Shown: one piece after another, positions 36,392-48,804 of the stretch
Layout of the letters: each line of letters opens with the position of its first letter
Numbering within the stretch: the stretch's first letter is position 1
NCBI RefSeq assembly: GCF_001693275.1
Contig: NZ_CP016477.1
Span: 1,364,001 to 1,428,000, forward strand
Origin: Picosynechococcus sp. PCC 7117
GTDB lineage: Bacteria > Cyanobacteriota > Cyanobacteriia > Cyanobacteriales > MRBY01
Reading direction: 5' to 3'
Length of the DNA: 64,000 nucleotides
Position numbers and translations under genes: made by a program
Notes under the pieces: model-generated
What the model was told of the DNA's origin: nothing
Seen by the model: only the letters and a program-made list of their open reading frames with translations
The model's database searches: none

Positions 36392-36432
36392 CTTGGATTA
36401 AAATAAAACAGTAAACATTGCAGGCGATCGCC

Positions 36433-36756
36433 ATGGTTCATCCCGCTCTTAGTGCTATTCTTGAACGACTGCGAGACTCTCTCAAAAGAATCTATGGGCC
36501 AGAACTCAAAGACTTAATCCTATTCGGGTCACAGGCGAAAAATACGGCAAAAGAAGACTCAGACATTGACATTGCCATTGTTTTAAAACACAATTTTGAT
36601 TTGGATCAAGAATTAGAAAAAACCAGCGCCATAATTGCTGATATCTGCTTGGAATATGACATTTTAATCAACCGCATTTTTATGGACAATGAATATTTTG
36701 AAAAACACCGGAGTGCTCTAATTCGAAATATTCAGCGAGAAGGTATTTATTTGTGA
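36433..36756 (+). CDS. MNT-type nucleotidyltransferase (antitoxin MntA-like)
   Basis: About 107 residues from ATG 36433. The nucleotidyltransferase motif is intact: LILFGSQAKNTAKEDSDIDIAIV near residues 31-53, the GS-x10-D-x-D pattern. The remaining small alpha/beta fold (DICLEYDILINRIF) and end fit minimal nucleotidyltransferases. In MNT/HEPN modules such a protein modifies or neutralises the partner HEPN ribonuclease. Four bases overlap with the next gene (GTGA), so the pair is translationally coupled. An upstream TTG at 36418 is possible but less likely. Confidence 0.85.
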   Translation: MVHPALSAILERLRDSLKRIYGPELKDLILFGSQAKNTAKEDSDIDIAIVLKHNFDLDQELEKTSAIIADICLEYDILINRIFMDNEYFEKHRSALIRNIQREGIYL

Positions 36757-37133
36757 ATTGCCAGCAGCAAAACTTAATGAGTAAGGCAACTGAAAGTTTA
36801 GAAGCAGCCAAATTATTACGAGATAATCAATACTTTGATTATTCGGTTTCGCGAGCTTACTACACAATGTTTTACTTAGCCGAAGCTTTTTTAGAAGGAG
36901 AAGCAAAAACTTTTTCGAGTCATGCTGCTGTAATTTCTGCTTTTGGTCGAGATTTTGCTAAATTAGGTAAAGTGCCGCGGGAATTCCATCGTTTCCTTAT
37001 TGATGCCCAGTCTCTTCGACAGACAGGTGACTATGGAAAGTTCCAGGCAATTTCTGAATATCAAGCGAATCAACAGATTGAAAATGCTACAAAATTTCTT
37101 ACTTTTGCTAGGGATTATTTCAAAGAATTTTAA
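36753..37133 (+). CDS. HEPN-domain protein, partner of the MNT gene
   Basis: A 126-residue helical protein. Residues ~10-45 match the UPF0332/HEPN signature: MSKATESLEAAKLLRDNQYFDYSVSRAYYTMFYLAEAFL, with conserved S-R-A-Y-Y. The usual HEPN RNase motif R-x4-6-H is not found; only REFH and a QTGDYG-type segment are seen. So this may be a HEPN toxin with a divergent site or a non-nuclease accessory of the MNT protein. Start is GTG 36753, overlapping the MNT stop codon. The short pair is less GC-rich and less codon-typical than the flanking genes. Confidence 0.78.
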   Translation: MNCQQQNLMSKATESLEAAKLLRDNQYFDYSVSRAYYTMFYLAEAFLEGEAKTFSSHAAVISAFGRDFAKLGKVPREFHRFLIDAQSLRQTGDYGKFQAISEYQANQQIENATKFLTFARDYFKEF

Positions 37134-37694: not shown

Positions 37695-40397
37695 TTAATT
37701 GAGAGGATAGTGGGTTTCTAAATAAGTTAAAGCAGAGGGGCGATCGCCAATGTTTTGGTCGAGGGTTTGTTTGAGAAGATCTGATAAAATATCGCGAAAT
37801 TGTGGCCCCGGTTTATAGCCTAATTCTTTTAAATCAAAACCATTAATGGGTGCTTGGATAAATTGCCAGCGGCGGAGATAATGCCATAAATCGTGACGCA
37901 TTTTTTTCGGGATGATGGCAGCTAGCAAGATAATTTCTGGCAAGGATAAATGCTTAAGGGCAAAGACTTTTTCACTCAGTTTTGTGGCCTGGAAAAGTTT
38001 GGGCAAAATTTGCGCTTCATGCTGGGAAATTGTCTCTAACCGTTGCAAACTATCCTTTGGTAATTGCAGGCGATCGCCCACTTTTAAGCGTTCTGCTGTG
38101 GTCAAATTTAACAACAAAGCTTCCAGGCGAAGACGCCAATGTTCCAATTCATAATCGGGGTCATGATAGCGTAACCAACGATCCACACAGCGAATTTGCC
38201 ACCAAACCGCATCTGTTAAAGCCAGATTTTTATGGATGCATTTCAACGCGCCCAGATCGTCTAACAATTGTAATGCGGGCTTCCAATATTTTGCTGTTAA
38301 AAGATATTTTAATTCCGCCCTTAATCGCGTCGTGAGTGCTGGGGCCTGGGGTTTTTCGTGGTGCAATTTGTCGTAAATGCCAGAGGCGATCGCATAGCGA
38401 ATATATTCCTCCGTCTGCACTTCTAGCTGAAAATTTAACCGCACCGCAAACCGCACCGCCCGATAGATGCGCGTCGGGTCTTCGATGAAACTGTTGGCAT
38501 GGAGCACCCGAATTTGCCGTTTTTTGAGATCCCAAAGCCCCCCGAAAAAATCGAGCAATTCCCCCGATCGGGGTTCCGTCAGGCGCAAACAGAGGGCATT
38601 GATCGAAAAATCGCGCCGATACAAATCCTGTCGAATCGAACTCGCTTCCACTTCTGGATTCGCCGCTGGATAGGGATAAAACTCCGTTCGGGCCGTGGCA
38701 ATGTCCAGCCACAGGGAACCCAACACCGGATCTTTGTGCCACAAAATCGCCGCCGTTTGGAATTCCCCATGCACCGATAACCGCGCGTTGGGTTGGCGCT
38801 CGCAAATGTAATTCGCCAAAGTCACCCCTGCTCCCACATCCGCCGCCGTATGGAAACCATCTACCACCAGATCAATATCCTGGAGCAGTAATTCTTCGTC
38901 GGAATCTGAAAGCAATACGTCCCGCACCGCCCCACCGACGAGGTACAAATGCCAGCCCCGTTTTTCGGCTTCCGTTGCCACCCCTTGCAATAACTGCCAC
39001 AGGGAAGGGGCCAGCCGTTCCGCAAAAATTTCCCGCAAAGGATAGCGATTTTTGTCATCCTTGGGAGTGGGTAACAGATCAAGAGGCTGCTCGTCCTGGT
39101 GATGTTGTCGCAAAACATCCGTCCGCGTCACAATGCCCAAAAGTTGATCACCCTCGATCACTGGTAATCGCCCCACATCGTCCGTCACCATAATCGTTTC
39201 AATGTCGCGCATGGTCGTGTCCGGCTGGATCGTGCGCACTTCTCGACTCATATAACCCTTAACGGGGGCATGGTGAAAGCCATGGTGAATCGCCAAATCT
39301 AGATCCCGCCGCGAAATGACCCCAACCAGTTGTTGCCGATCATCCACCACCACTAACCCGGAATGGCCGTAGCGAAACAACACCCGCTGGGCTTCCTCGA
39401 TGGAAGTTTGGGGCAAAATCGTACGCACGGGGGCCGTCATTAAATCCCGCGCCGTCAGGGCAGGGGGCACCTGGGCAATGAATTCGGCATAAATTTTGTG
39501 TAACATTGCCTCTGGTTTGTTGAGGCGCAAGCTTAGGGATGCGGCTTGATCGTGACCACCGCCACCATAGGGCGTAAACAGTCGATTGAGACTTGTTCCC
39601 ACAATTCGCGATCGCCCGATGATCACCATTTTCCCTTCCGCATCGGTCTGATGATAAAAATGCCCCAGTAACAGCGCATCGAGGTCGGTCATTTGCATCA
39701 TCTGCTCGACGAGATTCGACAGTCCCGGCACAAAACTCGCTGTTTTTAGCAAGACTCGCGCTACCCGATGGCCATCAACATTTTCCCGCTCCAGGTTGGC
39801 GATCGCCTCCGAAAATAAATGTTGCACCAAAGGCGAAAAACCGGGTTCAGCATACTCCGCAATAATTTTCACCATGGCACCCTGACCCATTAGCCACGTC
39901 AAAGCCTGGGCATCCCGTACCGTTGTTTGGTCAAAGGTGAGTGACCCGGTATCCACATGAATCCCCAAGGCCATCACCGTCGCCGTATAGGGATCGAGTT
40001 CTACCCCCCGCGCCTGCAATTTTTCTGCAATGATCGTCGTTGTCGCCCCCACATCTTCAATTTCCACGTAGGTCGCCGGAATGTCTCGCTCCTGATCAAG
40101 GTGATGATCATAAACTTCGATCTGCTTCACCTGGGGTCGATCTAGCCATTCCTGGGCCTTACCCAGCCGTTGTCGCTGCTGATTGTCCACCACCATAATC
40201 GTCCGCAACTGCTCCGGGTGCACCGAGCGCATCTCAATAAACGGAAACTCCCCCCGATAGAGTGCGAGAAACCGCTTTACCCCTGGATGTGCGCCGCCAG
40301 TCAGCACGACCCGCGCCCCAACCCGCAAATATGCCAAGCCAATCGCTGCTCCCAGGGCATCAAAATCAACGGTTTGGTGACAGAGAATTACATCCAT
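37695..40397 (-). CDS. DHH-CBS-tRNA nucleotidyltransferase fusion
   Basis: A 900-residue three-part protein from ATG 40397. Part one (residues ~1-315) is a DHH/DHHA1 phosphoesterase: HQTVDFDALGAAIGLAYL, VVDNQQRQRLGK, VYDHHLDQ, and YGGGGHDQAASL. Part two (~320-440) is a CBS pair, DLMTAPVRTILPQTS and YMSREVRTIQPDTTMR. Part three (~465-900) is a class II nucleotidyltransferase: LYLVGGAVRDVLL, LQDIDLVVDG, YRRDFSINAL and RIYRAVRFAVRLNF. Relatives add CCA, or A, to tRNA ends or make poly(A). The fusion to a DHH nuclease puts RNA end removal and addition in one chain. It is known in cyanobacteria and some deep-branching bacteria. Confidence 0.88.
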   Translation of the reverse strand: MDVILCHQTVDFDALGAAIGLAYLRVGARVVLTGGAHPGVKRFLALYRGEFPFIEMRSVHPEQLRTIMVVDNQQRQRLGKAQEWLDRPQVKQIEVYDHHLDQERDIPATYVEIEDVGATTTIIAEKLQARGVELDPYTATVMALGIHVDTGSLTFDQTTVRDAQALTWLMGQGAMVKIIAEYAEPGFSPLVQHLFSEAIANLERENVDGHRVARVLLKTASFVPGLSNLVEQMMQMTDLDALLLGHFYHQTDAEGKMVIIGRSRIVGTSLNRLFTPYGGGGHDQAASLSLRLNKPEAMLHKIYAEFIAQVPPALTARDLMTAPVRTILPQTSIEEAQRVLFRYGHSGLVVVDDRQQLVGVISRRDLDLAIHHGFHHAPVKGYMSREVRTIQPDTTMRDIETIMVTDDVGRLPVIEGDQLLGIVTRTDVLRQHHQDEQPLDLLPTPKDDKNRYPLREIFAERLAPSLWQLLQGVATEAEKRGWHLYLVGGAVRDVLLSDSDEELLLQDIDLVVDGFHTAADVGAGVTLANYICERQPNARLSVHGEFQTAAILWHKDPVLGSLWLDIATARTEFYPYPAANPEVEASSIRQDLYRRDFSINALCLRLTEPRSGELLDFFGGLWDLKKRQIRVLHANSFIEDPTRIYRAVRFAVRLNFQLEVQTEEYIRYAIASGIYDKLHHEKPQAPALTTRLRAELKYLLTAKYWKPALQLLDDLGALKCIHKNLALTDAVWWQIRCVDRWLRYHDPDYELEHWRLRLEALLLNLTTAERLKVGDRLQLPKDSLQRLETISQHEAQILPKLFQATKLSEKVFALKHLSLPEIILLAAIIPKKMRHDLWHYLRRWQFIQAPINGFDLKELGYKPGPQFRDILSDLLKQTLDQNIGDRPSALTYLETHYPLN

Positions 40398-40652
40398 AAA
40401 AAAGACAATCGACAAAAATTCAATACTTAATATTTATTTAATCCAAAAGAGTTTTGGTAGTCACCAATTAGAAAATCTATCATTGCAATTAATAAAGATG
40501 ATTCAAAAGAAGCTCAATAAAAAAGAGGGAAATACTAGTCATAATTAGAGCTGGTCAACTAAAATTATGCGTACTTAATTTTTGGTATTTCTTAGGCAAC
40601 CAGATAACTCAATCCCCAGAAATAGCACACTTGTTCTCAAAACAAGATTCAT

Positions 40653-41045
40653 TTAAGACTTCCAAATAACTAAAATCACACCAGCAGTAATTAGCCCCGA
40701 ACCAACTATCCTGCTTATAGGAATGTTTTCACCGAATAAAAAATAACCAATAAATATCGAAAAAATGTAAGTAACAGATAATGCTGGTGCGGCAATGCTT
40801 AAATTCACTCTAGCCAATAAGAAGATATACGCCCAAGTTCCCAGACTGTAAAAGAGCAATCCGCCAACTAACTCTGGAATCAATAAAATTTCAATTATAC
40901 GATAGACAATATTTTCAGAGACAATTTCATTTATTTTTAAAGCTCCTGTTTTCAAAAAAAATTGGCCGCCAATACTTGTTATGATATAAATAGAAAGTAA
41001 AATCAACTCATACAATCCCAAAACACTCAAGCCTCTAATTTTCAA
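40653..41045 (-). CDS. Small EmrE/EamA-like membrane transporter
   Basis: A 130-residue protein with four predicted membrane helices: LILLSIYIITSIGGQFFL, GGLLFYSLGTWAYIFLLARV, IAAPALSVTYIFSIFIGYFLF and IVGSGLITAGVILVIW. The helix pattern and the ending LFGENIPISRIVGSGLITAGVILV follow small multidrug resistance/EamA half-size transporters. The SMR-type conserved Glu in the first helix is not evident. The start is a TTG at 41045; no early ATG exists. It is the fourth gene of the minus-strand set, 61 bp after the acyltransferase-like gene. It could flip a lipid or small molecule across the membrane. Confidence 0.65.
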   Translation of the reverse strand: MKIRGLSVLGLYELILLSIYIITSIGGQFFLKTGALKINEIVSENIVYRIIEILLIPELVGGLLFYSLGTWAYIFLLARVNLSIAAPALSVTYIFSIFIGYFLFGENIPISRIVGSGLITAGVILVIWKS

Positions 41046-41106
41046 GTTATATGTAAGCTTGTATAATAAAAAACATCGACAACAAAACCCAGTACAAATA
41101 CATTAT

Positions 41107-41724
41107 TTATTTTTGATAACTTAACCTATTCTTAGGATAAATTTGCTGGGCAAATGGTATGTATTCATTATCTGGAATTTTAGAACCCGCACCAATACTG
41201 GAACGAGCTCCTAAAAAGACATTGTTGCCAATTTCAATAGTTTTAACATAAAGCAACAAATTATTACGCCTAGGTTTAATTATATGTGAACATATAGTAA
41301 CTTGGCCGCCAAAGATAACATTGTCACCAACAATTAAAAGACTACGATCAACTACCTGAATACCAGAAGTCCAATATATATTTTTGCCAATTTTCGCTCC
41401 CCATAATCTTAACCACAAAGAAAATGCCCCTGGGAAAAACAACAGTAGCTGTTCAAACATAGGGAAAGTACTATAGAAAACTTGTAACTGATGGCTTCCC
41501 CACCAAGGACTATACTCGGAACCAACTAAATAACTGATACCTTCTTCAATAGGATAAAAGTATTGATGTATGCGATGAATAATTGGCGGAAATATGTATA
41601 TTATAAAAAATAATAACAAAAGAATACTTATGCTAGGTTTGTAAGACAGCATAATCAAGCATAACAATATGCACGTAATTAATAGAGCTGGAAAAAAAGC
41701 AATGCTTCTACCTAAAAAACTCAT
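41107..41724 (-). CDS. Membrane-anchored left-handed beta-helix acyltransferase-like protein
   Basis: A 205-residue protein. The first ~60 residues hold two hydrophobic helices (ALLITCILLCLIMLSY, ISILLLLFFIIYIFPP). The rest forms hexapeptide-repeat-like units: IGKNIYWTSGIQVVDRSLLIVGDNVIFGGQVTI, IEIGNNVFLGARSSIGAGSKIPDN. This is the trimeric acetyl/acyltransferase (LbH) fold. The catalytic His can be placed in VTICSHII, but this is uncertain. It would act at the cytoplasmic side of a membrane, perhaps transferring an acyl group to the product exported by the neighbouring ABC system. ATG 41724. Sixty-two bp separate it from the ferritin-like gene upstream. Confidence 0.68.
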   Translation of the reverse strand: MSFLGRSIAFFPALLITCILLCLIMLSYKPSISILLLLFFIIYIFPPIIHRIHQYFYPIEEGISYLVGSEYSPWWGSHQLQVFYSTFPMFEQLLLFFPGAFSLWLRLWGAKIGKNIYWTSGIQVVDRSLLIVGDNVIFGGQVTICSHIIKPRRNNLLLYVKTIEIGNNVFLGARSSIGAGSKIPDNEYIPFAQQIYPKNRLSYQK

Positions 41725-41786
41725 GTTTTCACTATTTTAGCTAAATTAAATTATCAAATTCAAATACCTTCAATTTCAATTTTAAA

Positions 41787-42689
41787 CTATACACATTGCT
41801 GAGCAGAAAAAGGCTTAAAAGAATCTTGCTCATCTAACCTTTGAAGTACACTAGGAGGAAGACTATCAGTCATCATAAAACGCAGCAAATCTAATCTTTG
41901 TTGACTATAGATTTCTGTTTGTAACTCCTCAAGAATCTGAACTTTATTAGTTCGCGAAAGATAGCCTTTACCTTGCTCTATGGCATTGAGTAGACGCTGA
42001 GGACCATACTGAACCATTTGCAAAAATTCTGTGAGTGCATAGTAAATACTTTCTAGGCTTTCAGGAGTATAGTCCCATTCCTGAAGTGTCACCACTCCTG
42101 CTGCATGATGGCGCGATTCAGCTTCGAGAAATCCTCTTAAAGTAGTTGCCATATTCTGTTGTAAACATCCTTTCGCCAAAGAACGATAGTGACTAAAGCC
42201 CCAACCTTCAAGAACAAGCTGTACTAAAGTCATCAAAAGTGCCTTATCAAAAGATTCAACAATTTCCCCCATAAATGCCAAGAAAGTGTCTCCGTTAAAG
42301 ATGGGGGGTTTGTCTAAAAAAGTTTGAATTTGACTGAGATGAGTTGCTTCATCTGCGGCAAACAGACTATAAAGCATACGCTCTTCTCTGGAATCAGCCA
42401 ACAATAACATTTTAGACATATATCCTACCCCTGCATGCTCAACCCAATAAATTTCTTCTAACAAATCTCGATTTGCCTTTTGAAGAATAATAAATTGTTC
42501 AGACTGGTTTGCTTCCTGAAAAATACTTACTTGATCTAGTCCTAAAAAGGAAGCATCCCAATATAAAACTTCATTTAATGGGCTAGTGTTATGGTTGGAA
42601 TCTTTTAATGCTCCTTTTAGAATTTTTTTTAAAGGAGTAAAATTGGAAGAAAATGGTAAATTATATGAACTAAAATTCAATGAATTCAT
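41787..42689 (-). CDS. Ferritin-like diiron protein
   Basis: A 300-residue, mostly helical protein from ATG 42689. The diiron ligand pattern of the ferritin-like superfamily is visible as two repeats of Glu ... Glu-x-x-His: LLEEIYWVEHAG then AADEATHLSQI (ExxH), and LVLEGWGFSHYR then EAESRHHAAG (ExxH). Spacing between the four helices fits. The superfamily includes oxidases, oxygenases, desaturases and deformylases. I cannot name this one. Gene position between an acetyltransferase-like and an acyltransferase-like gene suggests a tailoring oxidation of a small molecule or fatty chain. Termini (first ~50 and last ~20 residues) lack family match. AT-rich codon use. Confidence 0.7.
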   Translation of the reverse strand: MNSLNFSSYNLPFSSNFTPLKKILKGALKDSNHNTSPLNEVLYWDASFLGLDQVSIFQEANQSEQFIILQKANRDLLEEIYWVEHAGVGYMSKMLLLADSREERMLYSLFAADEATHLSQIQTFLDKPPIFNGDTFLAFMGEIVESFDKALLMTLVQLVLEGWGFSHYRSLAKGCLQQNMATTLRGFLEAESRHHAAGVVTLQEWDYTPESLESIYYALTEFLQMVQYGPQRLLNAIEQGKGYLSRTNKVQILEELQTEIYSQQRLDLLRFMMTDSLPPSVLQRLDEQDSFKPFSAQQCV

Positions 42690-42752
42690 GATTGTCAATT
42701 GTCATTATATAATCTTGATGTCGAAACGAAGTAATTGGCTTTCGTCAATTTA

Positions 42753-43490
42753 TCATCCTGCTAGTTTAGACACAGGTTCCGGCAATTCTCCTGTAGCTAC
42801 CATACGCAAGCCTGCTTTCGTCATATTAGTTTCTGATAAATCAGTGAGGCAAACCAATTCATCACCATCGGAATGACCTGGATTTGATTTTTCAAAAAAT
42901 GATATATGCGGGTTTTTACGTCTATTTTCGGGTATTATTTTTAGCTCTGGACTAAGAATTTGAGGATTAGGAAATCTAACAACACCATGATCGGAATCAT
43001 ACAAATCTCCGAACTGATGATCCGCTAATTCCTTCATAAAGATTTCAAAATGCTCTGGAGTCTTAATATCATAACGTGGATAAAAGTCTCGAAAAAAGGT
43101 ACAGAGCAAGCGATAAGTTCGATAACCTGAAGAAATAAGTAGCCAGTATAATTTTTGGGAGGAAAGGCCATGAATACTTTTGACAGCTTTAATCCAAGCC
43201 TGAGAAAGGATAGGAGATGACCACATTGAAGGGTCAGTGATTGTGTCACCAGAATAAACAATTTTTACTAATTCATTTTGAAACTTAGTTTCGTAAAATA
43301 AGATTGTGGAAAAGCCTTTCAATTCTTTCGTCTCAATTGAATATAATAAAATCGCCCAGTCCTTTTGTGATAAATCTTCTATAAAATCATCCCAGCGCCT
43401 ACCGGGAAAGTGTGTCTCATGCAAAGCAAACATTTGCTTTCTTTGAGCGACAGATAATTCTTTAATGGCTATTAGATATGAGTGTATCAT
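42753..43490 (-). CDS. GNAT-like acyl/acetyltransferase-like protein
   Basis: A 245-residue protein from ATG 43490 (TTG 43508 possible). I read it as a GNAT-like fold by pattern: HSYLIAIKELSVAQRKQMFALHETHFPGRRWDDFIEDL at the start, then LKGFSTILFYETKFQNELVKIVYSGDTIT in the acyl-CoA site region, and YWLLISSGYRTYRLLCTFFRDFYPRYD in the second half. The last ~80 residues (IPENRRKNPHISFFEKSNPGHSDGDELV) form an extra tail. It is first of the minus-strand set and faces devB across a 247-bp gap. Similar genes accompany lipid or natural product loci, but I cannot name the substrate. Confidence 0.6.
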   Translation of the reverse strand: MIHSYLIAIKELSVAQRKQMFALHETHFPGRRWDDFIEDLSQKDWAILLYSIETKELKGFSTILFYETKFQNELVKIVYSGDTITDPSMWSSPILSQAWIKAVKSIHGLSSQKLYWLLISSGYRTYRLLCTFFRDFYPRYDIKTPEHFEIFMKELADHQFGDLYDSDHGVVRFPNPQILSPELKIIPENRRKNPHISFFEKSNPGHSDGDELVCLTDLSETNMTKAGLRMVATGELPEPVSKLAG

Positions 43491-43737
43491 TTTATACTTT
43501 TTTAACAAAAAAACCTAGTTAATGATCATCTTAGTAGTGAATCATAAAATAGTTCTAAAAATATAATAATAGATCAAGAAACTTTAGATAGGCAATGCTT
43601 ATAAAGGTATGTTTATACTAACATCTTAGCTGTTATGATTGCGTTGTGATAAGTCCCTAATAATCTTCTGTTTTGGTTTGTTAGGATTAAATAGGATTAA
43701 AGCGGATCCACAGTTTGTTGTGTTGTGTAGGTAAAAA
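43491..43737. promoter_or_regulatory. Divergent promoter region of the export locus
   Basis: An AT-rich 247-bp gap drives both gene sets. On the plus strand TTGCGT (43639-43644) and TAATCT (43661-43666) with 16-base spacing is a possible devB promoter. I see no clear operator. The shared gap suggests coordinated control of the two sets. Confidence 0.4.
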
Positions 43738-44862
43738 ATGAAAACTAATGCAAGTCTACTGTTCGGGTGTTTGATAGGAATCTCTCTTTTGGGATATCTG
43801 AGTTTTCGTTACAAATCTTCAGATACACAATCAGAGTTAATGGCCCAAGAAATCGTTCCGGAGCAGTCACATATTTTTGCGGTAGGTCGCCTAGAACCAA
43901 AAGGCGAAATTTTAACTATTTCTGGACTACTTGGGAGTAGAGTGGCAGAAATAACTGTACAAGAAGGAAATTGGGTCGAAAAAGGGCAAATTCTTGCTTT
44001 TCTTAGTGATTACCAAGTACAGTTATCTCGGCGTAATTTTGCTGCCAGTCGAGTAAGAGAGCTCTTTGCACAGTTTCAAGCCGAAACAAATGCAGCCAAG
44101 ATCCAAGTTCAAGAATCGCAAGCCCAATTAAGATTAATAGATCAACCCCAAGCATCAGAAATAGAAGCTCAACAAGCTGTCCTAGAAGGGGCAAAGGTAG
44201 AATTGGAAAACTCTACGATAAGATATGAGCGTTATCGACAATTACGAGATAATGGTGCGATTTCTGATCAAGCCTTAGAAGATCAACGATTACTAGTAGA
44301 ACAAGCTCAAACAAAAGTTGAACAAGCTCAAGCAACCTTTGATCGATTAACATATTCTCGTTTGAGTAGCCTTCAAAAAGCCAATATAACCGTAAATTAT
44401 TCTCAAGCAAACCTCGAACAAATCAAGAATCGGATCCCCTTGGAATCAGCTCAGCGAGAACTGGAGCTTGCTGAGGCGCAACTTGAGCAGACAATTATTC
44501 GTGCACCTGAATCAGGGAGAATTCTTAAAGTTTTCACTCATCCTGGTGAAGCTTTAGATTCACGAGGGCTTCTAGAACTCGGTGACACCCGTAATATGTA
44601 TGCAATAGCAGAAGTATATGAAACAGACATCACAAGGGTTAAAGTTGGTCAAGTTGCAAAAATTCATAGCCCTGTTTTCGATAAACCTATTCTGGGGTAT
44701 GTAGAAAAAATTGGACAATCTGTTTATAAAAATCGCTTAATTAGTGACGATCCTGGAGCGCGTGTAGATTCAAGGATTATTGAAGTTGCTATCAGACTAA
44801 AATCAAGTGATGAGGCCGCAAGCCTGAGTCGCTTGCAAGTAGATGTAGAAATTGATTTATAA
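43738..44862 (+). CDS. DevB-like membrane fusion protein of an ABC exporter
   Basis: A 374-residue periplasmic adaptor of the HlyD/DevB family. One N-terminal membrane segment (LFGCLIGISLLGYLSF) anchors it. A lipoyl half-motif follows (LGSRVAEITVQEGNWVEKGQILAFL), then a long Gln/Ala/Glu-rich coiled-coil (residues ~95-250) and a second lipoyl half with IIRAPESGRILKVFTHPGEALDSRGLLELG. The end forms a beta-barrel. DevB links the inner membrane ABC part to the outer membrane export pore; in heterocystous species DevBCA exports glycolipids. No heterocysts are expected in a unicellular host, so the cargo differs. ATG 43738. Confidence 0.87.
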   Translation: MKTNASLLFGCLIGISLLGYLSFRYKSSDTQSELMAQEIVPEQSHIFAVGRLEPKGEILTISGLLGSRVAEITVQEGNWVEKGQILAFLSDYQVQLSRRNFAASRVRELFAQFQAETNAAKIQVQESQAQLRLIDQPQASEIEAQQAVLEGAKVELENSTIRYERYRQLRDNGAISDQALEDQRLLVEQAQTKVEQAQATFDRLTYSRLSSLQKANITVNYSQANLEQIKNRIPLESAQRELELAEAQLEQTIIRAPESGRILKVFTHPGEALDSRGLLELGDTRNMYAIAEVYETDITRVKVGQVAKIHSPVFDKPILGYVEKIGQSVYKNRLISDDPGARVDSRIIEVAIRLKSSDEAASLSRLQVDVEIDL

Positions 44863-44874
44863 CTCTGATTTTTT

Positions 44875-46035
44875 ATGTTGAATAAAAAAGTATGGAGTAG
44901 TCTTCTACTAGCCTGGTCTAATCTTACCTATTCTCCAGGGGGCTCTTTCTTGGCAATTATAGGCAGTGGCTTTGCTGTTTTACTAGCCTTTGTTCAAATA
45001 GGGATCTTGGGATCTGTCCTAAGTAGTGCTGTATTGATTTATGAACAGCTTGATTTTGATCTTATTTTAATTTCTAATAAATCGTTAGAATTCAGTTTTA
45101 CGCAGCCTTTTTCGCAGCAACAACTGTATCGCATTCAAGGTTTAGAAGAAGTAGATAGTACTGCCTCTATCTATCTGTCGTTTGCAGACTGGAAAAATCC
45201 TGATACAAGGGAACCCAATACAATTTTTGTATTAGGTTATGAGCCAGAAAAGTACCCTTTTCAAGCACCTGACATTAATCACAAGACAGAAATAGTAAAA
45301 CAGCAAAAAACAGTACTTTTTAACGAAAAGAGTGATTTCGATGATTTTGGTGCAAGTTCATTTGAAGTTGGAACGATGACAGAAATAAAAGAAAGAGAAG
45401 TCAAAGTTGGTGGCTTTTTTTCTATGAGTAATAGTTTTAGATTTAATGGCTCTATTTTGATGAGTGCAGATAATTTTACTCAATATTTCCCACAGCGTTC
45501 TTTAGATGATGTGAGCTTGGGCTTGATAAAGTTAAAATCCAGTGTAAATCATAAACTTATCGCCCAAAAAATTCAAGAAATAATACCGGATAATATCAGC
45601 GTTTTTAGCCGCCAAGAAATCAAGAAAAAGGATCAGTATTATTGGCTGACATCCACAGCAATAGGAACAGTAATACTATTTGGAACTATTAGTTCTTTTC
45701 TGATTGGAGCTATTATTATTTATCAAATTTTAAGTGTTGACGTAACTGAGCGTATACCTGAATATGGCGCCCTAAAAGCAATAGGATATAGTAATCGCGA
45801 AATTATTAATGCTATCATTAATCAATCTAGTATATTAGGATTTTCAGGATTCCTTGTTGGCTGGGTATTATCTTGGCCAATGTATAGTTTCATGCGCTCA
45901 GAGACAGCACTTAGTATTTACATAGATCCAGTAACAGTAGTTTTCGTTTTATTTCTTACAATATGTACATGTAATATTTCAGCAATTCTAGCATCTCAAA
46001 ACATCATGAAATTTGACCCCGCTGATATTTTTTAA
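44875..46035 (+). CDS. DevC-like ABC transporter permease, first copy
   Basis: A 386-residue permease of the DevC/MacB/FtsX type. One membrane helix at the N-terminus (FLAIIGSGFAVLLAFVQIGIL) is followed by a large extracytoplasmic domain (residues ~50-255, with DLILISNKSLEF and FNGSILMSADNF), then three C-terminal helices (GTVILFGTISSFLIGAIII, ILGFSGFLVGWVLSWPMY, VVFVLFLTICTCNISAIL). The conserved IPEYGALKAIGYSNREI and tail KFDPADIF are typical. Twelve bp lie between devB and this gene; 16 bp to the next. It should pair with the second copy in a heterodimer or with itself. Confidence 0.87.
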   Translation: MLNKKVWSSLLLAWSNLTYSPGGSFLAIIGSGFAVLLAFVQIGILGSVLSSAVLIYEQLDFDLILISNKSLEFSFTQPFSQQQLYRIQGLEEVDSTASIYLSFADWKNPDTREPNTIFVLGYEPEKYPFQAPDINHKTEIVKQQKTVLFNEKSDFDDFGASSFEVGTMTEIKEREVKVGGFFSMSNSFRFNGSILMSADNFTQYFPQRSLDDVSLGLIKLKSSVNHKLIAQKIQEIIPDNISVFSRQEIKKKDQYYWLTSTAIGTVILFGTISSFLIGAIIIYQILSVDVTERIPEYGALKAIGYSNREIINAIINQSSILGFSGFLVGWVLSWPMYSFMRSETALSIYIDPVTVVFVLFLTICTCNISAILASQNIMKFDPADIF

Positions 46036-46051
46036 AAAAAACTAGAATTAT

Positions 46052-47254
46052 ATGATTCACCAGATCAAAATTCATATTTTATTATTTGAATTTTCTCTTG
46101 CTTGGCGTAATCTAACTTATAACTTTAAGCAGTTCATAGTTAGTATTATTGCCGTAAGCTTTGCTGTGGTTTTAATGCTAACTCAAATTGCTTTTCGTGA
46201 GGGTATGATTGAGAGTAATGTTGCATTTTTAAAAAAACTAGATGCCGATATCATATTAGTCGACTCAGAGCGTAACTTTACTTCATTAGAGCGGACATTT
46301 GATAAATATAGACTGTATCAAGCTAAATCACTAACAGAAATTATTTCTGCTGAACCACTATATTTAACACTAGCCACATGGAAAAATTTTTCAAATAATA
46401 CTGAACGTATTATTCGTGTTTTTGCATTTGATATTGAAGAACCTGTCTTTTTATTTCAGAATATTCAAAACTATCTTCCTAATTTAAGCCATGAAAATAC
46501 TGTTCTTGCGGATACAGCTTCCCGAAATGTATATGGACCACTCACAATTGGTACACAGACAGAATTGTCTGGACAAAGAATCAAGGTGGTTGGAAATTTT
46601 CAATTAGGATCGGACTTTGTAGCAGATGGAAACATTCTTATGAGTGATGAAAACTTTTTAAGAATTTTTGGAAGCAGACCTTCCGGATTTTCAGGTGACT
46701 TCAGAAAAACTCTTAATAATGTTGACCTAGGTCTTATAAAAGTCCAAGATCAATCGTCGATTGAGCAGGTAATTTCAAACTTAAAAAGAATTCTACCCAA
46801 AGATGTCGCTATTTTTACTAAACTAAATTATGTTGAACGAGAAAAAAACTTTTATAGCGAAGTTACTCTTGGGTTTATTTTTAAGTTTGGTGCAATTACA
46901 GGCTTTTTTATTGGTATATTCATAACATATAATATTGTTAGTGCAGACATCAGGAAAAATATGCCTCAATACGCAACATTAAAGGCAATAGGTCACTCCC
47001 AAAAATTCCTCTTGAATGTGGTTTTATTTCAGGTGATTCTAATAGCCATTTTAGGTTTTATACCAGGATTGTGCCTAAGTCAGATGTTATGTGATTTTAT
47101 CAGCCAAATAACAGGTCTTTTGATTCCAATAACCTATCAATCAATGCGATTAATTTTCTTTGCAAATATCTCAATGTGTCTGACAGCAGGAGTATTTTCT
47201 GCCCAAAAATTGAATTCAATCGATCCTGTAGATATTTATAGTAGAAAATTTTAG
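46052..47254 (+). CDS. DevC-like ABC transporter permease, second copy
   Basis: A 400-residue protein of the same layout as the preceding gene: N-terminal helix (FIVSIIAVSFAVVLMLTQIAF), a large extracytoplasmic domain, three C-terminal helices, the MPQYATLKAIGHSQKFLLNVV loop, and the tail SIDPVDIYSRKF. The two copies differ at most positions, so they are old paralogues, not a recent duplication. Typical DevBCA systems have one DevC, which forms a homodimer. Two adjacent, different permeases suggest an asymmetric pore, as in heterodimeric exporters. Second half has a GLCLSQMLCDF helix. Start ATG 46052. Confidence 0.85.
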   Translation: MIHQIKIHILLFEFSLAWRNLTYNFKQFIVSIIAVSFAVVLMLTQIAFREGMIESNVAFLKKLDADIILVDSERNFTSLERTFDKYRLYQAKSLTEIISAEPLYLTLATWKNFSNNTERIIRVFAFDIEEPVFLFQNIQNYLPNLSHENTVLADTASRNVYGPLTIGTQTELSGQRIKVVGNFQLGSDFVADGNILMSDENFLRIFGSRPSGFSGDFRKTLNNVDLGLIKVQDQSSIEQVISNLKRILPKDVAIFTKLNYVEREKNFYSEVTLGFIFKFGAITGFFIGIFITYNIVSADIRKNMPQYATLKAIGHSQKFLLNVVLFQVILIAILGFIPGLCLSQMLCDFISQITGLLIPITYQSMRLIFFANISMCLTAGVFSAQKLNSIDPVDIYSRKF

Positions 47255-47291
47255 TTTGAGTTAAACTTTTCTCGCAAAAATATTTCAGAAT

Positions 47292-47969
47292 ATGATTCAA
47301 ATCAAAAACATCAACCATTACTATGGAAAAGGACACTTTAAAAAGCAAGTCTTATTCAATATATCCCTCGATATTCAGCCTGGTGAAATTGTGCTTATGA
47401 CAGGGCCTTCTGGTTCAGGGAAAACAACTCTTTTGACTTTAATTGGAGGGTTAAGATCTGTACAAGAAGGAAGCTTAAAAGTTTTTAAAACAGAATTATT
47501 TAAACAGAGAAAAAAATCTCTAGAAAATATACGAAAAAAAATTGGGTTTATTTTTCAAAGCCATAATCTTTTGAGTTCATTGACTGCCTTGCAAAATGTG
47601 CAAATTGCAAATATATTGAGCGATGTTTCTTCTGTACAAGAGTCTAAAAATCAAGCAGAAAAAATACTCAAAGCAGTGGGATTAGAAACGCATTTAGATG
47701 CTTATCCCTCTCAGCTTTCTGGTGGCCAAAAACAACGTGTAGCTATAGCTAGAGCTCTCGTAAATAAACCAAAGCTTATATTGGCAGATGAACCAACTGC
47801 TTCACTCGATAAACTCAATAGAGAAGATGTTTTAAGATTGCTTCATCAATTGGCTAAGGAGCAAAATTGTACAGTTCTATTTGTGACCCATGATACACGA
47901 GTATTGGGAATCGCTGATCGAATAATCAACCTAGAAGACGGAAAAATAACTAATTCATTAGAGTGCTGA
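47292..47969 (+). CDS. DevA-like ABC transporter ATPase
   Basis: A 225-residue ATPase. The Walker A motif is [11 protein letters not shown] near residues 38-48, the signature is [15 protein letters not shown] near 140-154, and Walker B is [10 protein letters not shown] near 162-171, with H-loop in [10 protein letters not shown]. This matches the MacB/LolD/DevA export family. It energises the DevB-DevC exporter of the three genes before it; order here is B-C-C-A. The start ATG 47292 is 37 bp after the second permease. It is the last gene of the set; 154 bp of AT-rich DNA follow before the ParA gene, with no clear terminator. Confidence 0.9.
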
Positions 47970-48123
47970 GATTGTCATTCCATTAGATATGAATTAAAGT
48001 TTGAGAATCAATAAATCAATTGGACATTAATATTAATTAGTCTCATATTACGTAACTTACAATATTAATATTCTCTACAAGAAATGTTGCATTTATTCAG
48101 GAAATGGAAACAAAGCAGCTATA

Positions 48124-48804
48124 ATGACTCACCATAAATTCAAGGCCAGTGAGCAAAAAAAATCTATTGTGGTATCCCAGCGGATTTTAGCAGTTGTGAA
48201 TGGTAAAGGAGGCGTTGGTAAAACAACAACCGCCGTTAACCTTGCGGCCATTTTTGCCGAAAAACAGCAGGTTCTCTTGGTGGATAGCGATCCCCAGGGA
48301 TCGGCCTCTTGGTGGGTAGACCGTAACCCCGATGAATGGCAACTGGATGTCAGTAGAGAACATCAACCAGATTTACTTCAAAATCTCCGACAGATTAAAG
48401 GCTATGACTTGATCGTGGTGGATACCCCTCCGGCCTTGCGATCGCAGGCCCTCAAGACCGTCCTCCGGATTGCGGATTATGTGATCTTGCCGACACCACC
48501 AGCGCCGATGGACTTAAGCGCCTTAATTGAAACGGTGCAAACGGCCATTAATCCCGTTGAAATTAGTCACCGAGTGCTCCTGACAAAAGTCGATAGTCGC
48601 AGCCTCCGGGAGAGCATTGATGCCCAAAATACCTTGATTGAGTTGGGGATTCCGGTGTGCCATGCCTTTGTGCGCAGTTATAAAGCCCACGAGCAAGCTG
48701 TCCTCGCAGGCGTTCCCATGACCCAAATGCGTGGTAAAAAGGCTAAGGATGCGGAAACGGATTATCGTCGTGTCGCGGATGAACTGCAACGAGATTGGAC
48801 TTAA
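48124..48804 (+). CDS. ParA-family ATPase
   Basis: The 226-residue ATPase has a deviant Walker A ([16 protein letters not shown] near residues 27-42), switch I-like [14 protein letters not shown] and Walker [11 protein letters not shown]. ParA/MinD-type ATPases bind DNA non-specifically as ATP dimers and move cargo such as plasmids, chromosomes or carboxysomes. The downstream coiled-coil gene begins six bases after the stop and may be the cargo adaptor. HIP1 sites return from this gene onwards, so it belongs to the core chromosome. ATG 48124. An McdA role (carboxysome spacing) is possible, of the type that keeps the signature Lys. Confidence 0.85.

Follow-up and report, generated by a model that had tools for sequence, protein, structure and literature searches.

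A divergent eight-gene locus of Picosynechococcus sp. PCC 7117 as a candidate exporter-coupled relative of the 'Rieske-containing' CylC-homologue clusters

In this study, a 64,000-nucleotide stretch of the Picosynechococcus sp. PCC 7117 genome, hereafter the window, was investigated, and an eight-gene locus was observed in which an enzyme arm (GNAT-like, ferritin-like and LbH proteins with an EamA half-domain protein) faces a DevB-DevC1-DevC2-DevA exporter arm. The two-permease DevBCA clade to which this exporter belongs has so far been seen only beside these enzymes. The reading that we favour, and hold to be slightly on the probable side, is that of a trimmed relative of the 'Rieske-containing' CylC-homologue cluster coupled to an exporter, a locus that would acylate and oxidise a small amphiphile and pump it out.

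Architecture and composition of the locus

The features of the locus and of its two flanks are collected in Table 1. The initial annotation had described two divergent gene sets sharing one AT-rich gap of 247 bp, and this length holds when GNAT is taken to begin at 43,490, the ATG used by most of its relatives; the seven proteins counted there were a slip, as the locus comprises eight genes. The DNA had also been called compositionally foreign, which was confirmed both by composition and by comparison with congeners. The GC content of the segment is 34.2%, against 49.5% in the flanks (about 10 kb per side), and any equally long part of the window that lies clear of the locus has at least 46.8%. 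GC3 is 0.24-0.30 in the locus genes, whereas the gene on either flank has 0.50-0.54. In two congeners, homology ends at about 40,401 and restarts at about 48,078, marking the segment edges, and the same site is occupied by about 1.06 kb with an AbiEi/AbiEii toxin-antitoxin pair. The eight-gene block was apparently imported into the cyanobacterial genome. No repeat pair joining both segment ends was noticed among the repeats listed (20 of the 34 direct and 25 of the 43 inverted), and no Rfam match at gathering score was obtained between 36,000 and 50,000.

Table 1. Features of the divergent locus and its flanks (positions in the window)
Feature	Position	Strand	Remarks
DHH-CBS-poly(A)-polymerase gene	37695-40415	-	flank of foreign segment
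Foreign segment	40402-48077	none	7.68 kb, AT-rich, sharp edges
EamA-half gene	40653-41045	-	open frame, 130 aa
LbH gene	41107-41724	-	open frame, 205 aa
Ferritin-like (Fer) gene	41787-42698	-	open frame, 303 aa
GNAT-like gene	42753-43508	-	open frame; start more likely ATG at 43490
Divergent gap, AT-rich	43491-43737	none	247 bp with GNAT start at 43490
DevB gene	43738-44862	+	open frame
DevC1 gene	44875-46035	+	open frame
DevC2 gene	46052-47254	+	open frame
DevA gene	47292-47969	+	open frame, 225 aa
ParA-family gene	48124-48804	+	other flank of foreign segment

The enzyme arm and the nine-gene cyanobacterial cluster

Despite the lack of any Pfam or NCBIfam match up to an E value of 1, the acetyltransferase-like call made for the GNAT-like protein was borne out at the level of fold. 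Its AlphaFold model (mean pLDDT 92) is predicted to take the GNAT fold (best Z 12.2), and of 153 Foldseek matches at E <= 0.001, the 50 listed are nearly all named acetyltransferases, so that by its predicted fold the protein probably belongs to the GNAT superfamily and is N-acyltransferase-like. Likewise, the ferritin-like call for Fer stands, though its Pfam match (E 4e-4) is weak and below cut-off: the predicted fold is that of diiron-carboxylate proteins (best Z 16.9; best Foldseek E 5e-3), and residues E82, E117, H120, E164, E194 and H197 are invariant in all 45 aligned sequences. Model and conservation together point to a four-helix bundle with Glu/His diiron ligands. The fold and the invariant set of two His and four Glu are common to aldehyde-deformylating oxygenase, AurF/CmlI and other diiron-carboxylate proteins, to which Fer is 9-15% identical among the matches listed. 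In the fold match lists of both GNAT and Fer, the absence of a family proves nothing. Searches for mobile relatives gave 11 pattern matches to GNAT in viral contigs, 0 of them confirmed, and zero matches to Fer in plasmids; PADLOC returned zero matches to GNAT, Fer or LbH.

The LbH protein, with a Pfam Hexapep match (1.7e-4) below cut-off, is a left-handed beta-helix (hexapeptide) acyltransferase-like protein with a hydrophobic N-terminal stretch (residues 1-53), and shares 38-50% identity with its relatives in an alignment of 14. The last protein of the arm had been labelled EmrE-like, which is a loose label, as it is an EamA half-domain protein of four hydrophobic stretches (four TM) that matches Pfam EamA at exactly the cut-off (2.7e-6, 28.2 bits) and has weak similarity to the aminoarabinose-lipid flippase ArnF/ArnE (NCBIfam ArnF 1.2e-5, 26 bits against a cut-off of 99). 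Judging from its sequence, it is possibly a small flippase. At E < 0.1, the loci of the cluster relatives yielded no EamA relative but itself.

We observed that homologues of the three enzymes lie in a nine-gene cluster that consists of genes for GNAT, Rieske, ferritin-like, CylC-like halogenase, ferredoxin, a further Rieske, fatty-acid hydroxylase, LbH and GH3 proteins. Across 80 ferritin-like loci, some ending at contig ends, GNAT was present in 70/80, Fer in 79/80 and LbH in 57/80; at least five further gene families recur in five or more of the 80 neighbourhoods. The motifs given for CylC homologues in the parts consulted of PMC12871659 and PMC12101540, ExxQExxH and HxxDExxH, are carried by 75/75 and 74/75, respectively, of the AurF-like (CylC-like) proteins of the relatives; a profile built from five such proteins had no match among PDB sequences up to E 1. 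Fer itself was considered as a CylC-type dimetal halogenase and rejected, as both motifs are absent from the window protein (alignment, by eye) and none of its 79 relatives has the two.

The nine-gene cluster fits the product-less 'Rieske-containing' class, defined by two to four Rieske proteins and a CylC homologue, which in the consulted part of Eusebio et al. 2021 (PMC8406957) is the most abundant type with 36 of 95 CylC-homologue clusters. The window's GNAT, Fer and LbH are homologous to genes of that class, with GNAT and LbH membership taken from the 80 loci of this study, so that the earlier statement that no system with this set had been described is not supported, the enzymes being part of the set found in an orphan class of clusters already in print; the reading of a locus unlike anything described was dropped on the same ground. 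Unlike the full cluster, the window locus is without the CylC homologue, both Rieske proteins, ferredoxin, fatty-acid hydroxylase and GH3, and adds the DevB-C1-C2-A exporter and the EamA half-transporter. Neither a Rieske gene or convincing remnant of one nor a CylC homologue was found in the locus or window, and no remnants of the six missing genes were seen at the locus. A shortened set is also found in the PriA-type Synechocystis cluster, of which loci L025 and L124 are presumed examples; their GNAT and Fer sit inside the window's eight-row clade, yet they keep Rieske and CylC-like genes and show no exporter beside them, unlike the window.

The exporter and its pairing with the enzymes

The complete exporter with two different permeases, as first annotated, was supported. 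DevB, a periplasmic adaptor (membrane fusion protein), exceeds the TIGR02971 cut-off (283 vs 129 bits) and has a putative MacA as its nearest PDB sequence (3.6e-6), while DevA exceeds that of TIGR02982 (338.6 vs 295.8 bits) and displays Walker A, LSGGQ, Walker B and H-loop motifs; it is without the C-terminal GAF domain that the Limnothrix relative has. DevC1 and DevC2 are FtsX/MacB-type permeases with FtsX domain matches, both under the TIGR01185 equivalog cut-off of 290.35 (268.4 and 261.5 bits), are 29% identical and fall into separate C1 and C2 clades. A clear TolC-like frame, 592 aa long and carrying two OEP repeats, is present in the window genome, together with a marginal third OEP match on contig 5.

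The DevB and DevA families, DevC-type permeases and a TolC-type protein are common to the window genome and to the DevBCA-HgdD heterocyst glycolipid exporter and its paralogues in Anabaena PCC 7120 (PMC6161253, PMC8277102, each consulted in part). Different from that system, the window has two divergent permeases rather than one DevC, in clades apart from the 20 single-DevC rows, and its gap has no NtcA site. The exporter family is not tied to heterocysts: 227 of the 386 genomes of cyanobacteria searched have DevC2 matches at E <= 0.001, although many of these matches are weak. A heterocyst glycolipid locus was rejected in view of these widespread permeases, the gap without an NtcA box and the segment, in which no glycolipid-synthesis gene was recognised. 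The box GTA-N8-TAC was missing from all three gaps inspected, those of the window, Limnothrix and Calothrix loci; promoter-like matches stood at chance (33 found vs 30.5 expected, 40,380-48,200), and so did the terminator scan of the locus. DevB/DevC genes at one end of tolyporphin clusters are a precedent for such genes in a cyanobacterial biosynthetic cluster; that pathway is a tetrapyrrole one, and the main text of PMC8401325, as far as consulted, does not name ferritin, GNAT or Rieske. The main text of PMC8406957 contains neither the term 'ABC transporter' nor 'DevB', and no exporter tied to 'Rieske-containing' clusters was named in the titles and opening lines of abstracts searched, which covered few subscription journals.

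The two arms belong together because the pairing recurs, the permeases share a clade, and DevC2 above 50% identity was detected only in Limnothrix. The same DevB-C1-C2-A exporter, with DevB head-to-head with GNAT, was found in Limnothrix RL_2_0 and Calothrix NIES-4101, in accordance with the link claimed initially; GNAT, Fer, LbH, DevB, C1, C2 and DevA are present at each of the three loci, with breaks in some of these genes in both relatives, and the Limnothrix locus has all nine cluster genes as well. The permease tree places these three loci together in a single clade for each permease (C1, 100/100; C2, 100/99), and the two clades branch alike. The identities between window and Limnothrix (GNAT 56%, Fer 62%, DevB 56%, C1 52%, C2 56%, DevA 64%) show that both arms have diverged alike. 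The window strain and Limnothrix belong to a single genus, leaving Calothrix as the sole distant support, and there the DevA start is missing and a transposase adjoins. The initial annotation held that the link would fail if the two sets almost never occurred together. At the family level this is the case, the exporter not being seen at 78/80 Fer loci in the stretch around each (some cut at contig ends) and the enzymes lying beside 0/11 other DevB-C-C-A cassettes, with one weak LbH-like match (30%) at L117; at the clade level, however, the only one of 387 other genomes of the order with a DevC2 above 50% identity, Limnothrix, carries the enzymes. By contrast, the paired loci do not group by themselves in the GNAT+Fer tree, where they share an eight-row clade with five loci that show no exporter, a pattern that requires the exporter to have been gained or lost. 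A test for a single origin of the exporter-paired GNAT+Fer loci did not recover one: the tree needs three changes, which is not fewer than with labels shuffled, and just three rows carry the label.

Proposed pathway, alternatives and implications

The make-and-export logic first suggested is supported, as are the acyl-transfer and diiron folds. In the route we propose, GNAT would acylate an amine with a group taken from a host thioester, the Fer diiron protein would oxidise the acyl chain or nitrogen with O2, and the membrane-anchored LbH would add a second (O-)acyl group, after which the EamA half-transporter perhaps assists flipping of the amphiphile; both the sequence of these steps and the part given to EamA are guesswork. 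The product would then be delivered to a host TolC-type channel by a DevB ring and a heterodimer of DevC1 and DevC2 working with two DevA subunits, and the common gap would let maker and pump genes be turned on jointly. Some sister cassettes (L114, L120, L223) adjoin acyl-AMP ligase or PKS genes, indicating a fatty-acyl-derived cargo. The product may be a simpler, chlorine-free cousin of that of the full cluster.

The main rival, which we consider unlikely, is that the enzyme arm is the decaying, product-less remainder of a full cluster and that the pump alone is used, if anything. It draws on the absence, without visible remnants, of six of the nine core genes, on a genome with zero GH3 matches and no CylC-like match (the latter search had no positive control), and on the near-invariant positions, of which the window Fer keeps 68/75, the lowest of 45, and LbH 39/45, the third lowest of 14. 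Genes are also broken in both other paired loci: the Limnothrix draft has an in-frame stop in GNAT, which moved our estimate for decay slightly up and that for the favoured reading slightly down, and frameshifts in LbH and DevB, though a core gene is split into three frames in the same draft, so sequencing error is possible behind its broken genes. Against decay, all eight window frames are open with enzyme-arm spacers of 54-62 bp, the six diiron ligands and the invariant His147 of LbH are kept, and GNAT retains 66/69 near-invariant positions.

The full-cluster product could instead be made with unlinked host enzymes filling the missing steps, in line with the additional functions dispersed through the genomes of PriA-type strains (PMC8406957, in the part consulted) and with the other Rieske and fatty-acid hydroxylase proteins of the window genome. 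This is quite improbable, as no close stand-ins for the six enzymes were found elsewhere in that genome: none of its Rieske proteins exceeds 36% identity to those of the cluster, over partial stretches, its best fatty-acid hydroxylase match reaches 28%, and GH3 and CylC-like proteins are missing as above. An improbable alternative, too, is a general MacAB-like pump for efflux or self-protection, with enzymes that serve an unrelated, non-exported membrane lipid and a gap that is incidental; DevBCA is MacAB-like, its Anabaena paralogues have reported roles in drug resistance and iron metabolism (PMC8277102, in part), and 78 of the 80 enzyme loci show no such pump in the stretch around each. The clade-specific pairing at three loci in identical head-to-head order speaks against it, as does the failure to find a close DevC2 elsewhere in the genomes searched.

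A bolder reading may be put forward tentatively, though we doubt it: GNAT, Fer and LbH could be the irreducible core of an orphan pathway across dozens of cyanobacterial genera, and the window locus a minimal form without halogenase, equipped with a two-permease exporter of its own, that makes and secretes a new class of doubly acylated, oxidised small amphiphiles. The trimmed, exporter-paired version would make the product of a product-less cluster easier to hunt, since eight genes in a 3.4-Mb genome are a short knock-out list and direct the search to the medium. A candidate class of cargo would thereby also be at hand for the DevBCA pumps with two permeases, which form a branch of their own within the family.

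Locus, composition and insertion site

The window covers bases 1364001-1428000 of contig 1 in a 3.43 Mb genome, and Picosynechococcus is unicellular. All eight frames of the two divergent arms (an enzyme arm of EamA half-domain, LbH, ferritin-like Fer and GNAT genes, and an exporter arm of DevB, DevC1, DevC2 and DevA) are open and arranged as the initial annotation described. The compositionally foreign DNA that it reported was also borne out, with a GC content of 34.2% in the locus against 49.5% in the flanks, the lowest value for any equally long stretch of the window clear of the locus being 46.8%. Two congeners (G081 and G387) are homologous to the window as far as about 40401, where the DHH-CBS-poly(A)-polymerase gene starts, and again from about 48078, just upstream of a ParA-family gene; in place of the locus, both have about 1,063 bases. 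A family search of the G081 copy identified these bases as genes for AbiEii (Pfam, 1.9e-17) and its small partner AbiEi, so that at this fixed site either the locus has taken the place of a toxin-antitoxin pair or the pair that of the locus. The gap ahead of the DHH gene has the look of a swap site. The annotated genes include no recognised integrase, and the repeats listed no terminal repeats of the segment. By eye, Limnothrix RL_2_0 seems to carry a nucleotidyltransferase-like gene and a partner at the same gap. The NTP_transf_2 and HEPN pair in the window is likely a toxin-antitoxin module.

Coordinates and neighbours of the features discussed (L-numbers are relative loci)
Feature	Source	Position	Remark
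Swap-site segment	Window	40402-48077	
Swap-site segment	L108	14030-15045	
Swap-site segment	L109	13893-14863	
Swap-site segment	L112	3952-4568	
NTP_transf_2 nucleotidyltransferase and HEPN gene pair	Window	36418-37133	about 3.3 kb from segment
DevA with C-terminal GAF	L123	2824-4206	
DevA with C-terminal GAF	L223	8109-9461	
DevA with C-terminal GAF	L224	10946-12283	
DevA with C-terminal GAF	L114	10844-12241	
Damaged genes, Limnothrix RL_2_0	L123	8050-8832; 6704-7847	also L212/L213
DDE transposase ORF, Calothrix NIES-4101	L129	3416-5179	between DevC2 and start-less DevA
980-aa protein	L114	5646-8588	DevB behind Pyr_redox_2/NDH2-type and cyclic-nucleotide-binding domains
Equal in length and DevB match to the L114 protein	L115	3449-6391	
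cNMP-binding proteins	L224		within and after DevB-C-C-A cassette
Single 902-aa ORF in PKS-adjoining cassette	L120	11247-13955	MFS transporter, DevA-type ATPase, response-regulator receiver
Cassette neighbour	L114		stand-alone acyl-AMP ligase
Cassette neighbours	L223		AMP ligase-ACP-thioesterase protein; ketosynthase
Cassette neighbour	L120		PKS
Cassette neighbours	L113		FMN oxidoreductase; aldehyde dehydrogenase
Cassette neighbour	L116		mechanosensitive channel; uninformative on lipids
Cassette neighbour	L117		DNA polymerase subunit; uninformative on lipids

The enzymes and their usual clusters

The GNAT-like protein had no match in Pfam or NCBIfam; despite this, its model (49 sequences, mean pLDDT 92) aligned with GNAT structures at Z scores of up to 12.2, which upholds the earlier call. 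The Fer model (45 sequences, mean pLDDT 88.5) had aldehyde-deformylating oxygenase as its closest structure (Z 16.9, rmsd 3.3-3.4 over 202-206 residues), followed closely by methane monooxygenase, R2 and CmlI, but this value does not fix the nearest family, since Foldseek gave no match under E 0.001 and a best Z of about 14 is attained even by mostly helical models lacking clear relatives. The predicted diiron class is carried instead by conserved ligands (Glu82, Glu117, His120, Glu164, Glu194 and His197, invariant in 45/45 sequences). LbH keeps the invariant His147 and has a hydrophobic stretch at its N-terminus. Near-invariant positions were kept at 66/69 in the window GNAT (tenth lowest of 49), 68/75 in Fer (lowest of 45) and 39/45 in LbH (third lowest of 14), a pattern compatible with relaxed constraint as well as with a change of substrate.

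Fer was present in 24 of 386 cyanobacterial genomes, and within the genus in two of six, the window's and that of Limnothrix RL_2_0. From the 104 relatives that a scan of GTDB contigs yielded, the 80 best, all cyanobacterial by name, were annotated. Among these best 80 of 104 loci, including those cut at contig ends, we observed Fer in 79, a first Rieske protein in 78, a CylC-like protein in 75, GNAT in 70, ferredoxin in 68, a VanA-type Rieske protein in 64, a fatty-acid hydroxylase in 61, a third Rieske protein in 60, LbH in 57 and GH3 in 52; among the 56 loci that reach 20.5 kb, 34 hold the complete nine-gene core. The gene names are backed by Pfam on one locus (L036), and for GH3 additionally on L214. 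The AurF-like protein displays the two halogenase motifs given in PMC12871659 and PMC12101540 in 75/75 and 74/75 cases. A matching architecture is that of the 'Rieske-containing' CylC clusters described by Eusebio et al. (PMC8406957), with which the nine-gene cluster is probably identical; they account for 36 of the 95 clusters in that paper, contain two to four Rieske proteins and in most cases a sterol-desaturase-family protein, and have no known product. The paper also describes a 'PriA' type in Synechocystis (diguanylate cyclase/phosphodiesterase, ring-hydroxylating dioxygenase and ferritin-like protein), which L025 and L124 fit. In L044 and L046, from genomes of another class of the phylum, distant GNAT and Fer relatives (about 30% identical) directly adjoin each other, so that the two together may be the most ancient unit.

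The exporter and its pairing with the enzymes

DevB and DevA scored above their family cut-offs; DevC1 and DevC2, 29% identical to each other, both match the DevC model below its equivalog cut-off. In a 45-row permease tree, midpoint-rooted for drawing only, the first permeases of two-permease cassettes formed one group (12 rows, support 100/99) and the second permeases a separate one (13 rows including one lone DevC, support 100/97), both standing apart from 20 single DevC rows. This indicates that the two permeases are old paralogues that have been maintained together, in the simplest case as a heterodimer. A DevC2 search of the window genome hit two places, DevC2 itself and presumably DevC1, and the genome has a single clear TolC-like frame, plus one marginal match. 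Four relatives carry a C-terminal GAF domain that the window DevA does not have. The DevB fusion in L114 and the cNMP-binding proteins in L224 suggest redox or cyclic-nucleotide control of such pumps, and the 902-aa ORF of L120 could be a genuine fusion or an assembly effect.

The initial annotation had joined both arms in one make-and-export system. At the family level they are mostly not together: 78 of the best 80 of 104 enzyme loci have no such exporter in the stretch examined, and none of the enzymes adjoins any of the 11 other DevB-C-C-A cassettes, bar one weak LbH-like match, their neighbours being identified in part. The claim holds for three head-to-head loci, as DevB faces GNAT in Limnothrix RL_2_0 and Calothrix NIES-4101 (the two exporter-bearing loci of the 80) just as in the window. 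In Limnothrix RL_2_0 the exporter sits amid the complete set of nine cluster genes, and Calothrix NIES-4101 has GNAT, Fer, one Rieske protein, LbH and GH3. The permeases of these three loci form one clade in each paralogue set of the 45-row tree, with identical branching. Independently of the enzymes, a search of 388 genomes of the order found DevC2 in seven (E <= 1e-85); besides the window's, the sole one more than 50% identical was that of Limnothrix RL_2_0 (G388, 56%), the remaining five being 39-43% identical, while Calothrix NIES-4101 is known from the enzyme search.

Two findings speak against a simple history. Limnothrix RL_2_0 belongs to the window's genus, but its cluster lies at a different site and the DHH gene neighbours differ. 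In a GNAT and Fer tree of 32 rows (built from the window plus 31 loci of the 80), no clade unites the three paired loci; they fall within an eight-row clade (support 100/100) whose other members, which show no exporter, are Synechocystis salina, Nostoc calcicola, two Crocosphaera and Desmonostoc (whose locus is truncated on its upstream side by the contig end). The pairing was thus either gained once and then lost, or moved. Damage was also noticed: in Calothrix NIES-4101 a transposase stands beside a DevA with its start missing, so the pump may be broken, and the Limnothrix RL_2_0 draft shows an in-frame stop in GNAT and frameshifts in LbH and DevB, for which error and decay are not separable as the draft also splits the core DHH gene into three frames.

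Proposed working of the window version

Neither the locus nor the rest of the 64-kb window holds a convincing remnant of any of the six missing cluster genes. In the window genome, GH3 had no match (control positive in 1/14 genomes), nor did the CylC-like protein (search without positive control); the genome's Rieske proteins are at most 36% identical to those of the cluster over partial stretches, and the best fatty-acid hydroxylase match is 28%. GH3 matches OlsH, whose role is treated in PMC12493201, weakly (24 bits, cut-off 620), and is likely the ligase of the full cluster.

The simplest reading of three enzymes beside a lipid-type tripartite pump would be synthesis and export: the remaining N-acyltransferase-like, diiron oxidase-like and membrane acyltransferase-like proteins would use acyl thioesters of the host to build an amphiphile, acylated and oxidised, that would leave through DevB-C1C2-A and TolC. 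We consider the evolutionary part of this reading quite probable and the chemical part an even chance; the broken frames of the other two paired loci lowered confidence in the whole slightly, from modestly to barely better than even. As GH3 and the CylC-like enzyme are absent, the product of the window version should lack the ligase step and should be chlorine-free.
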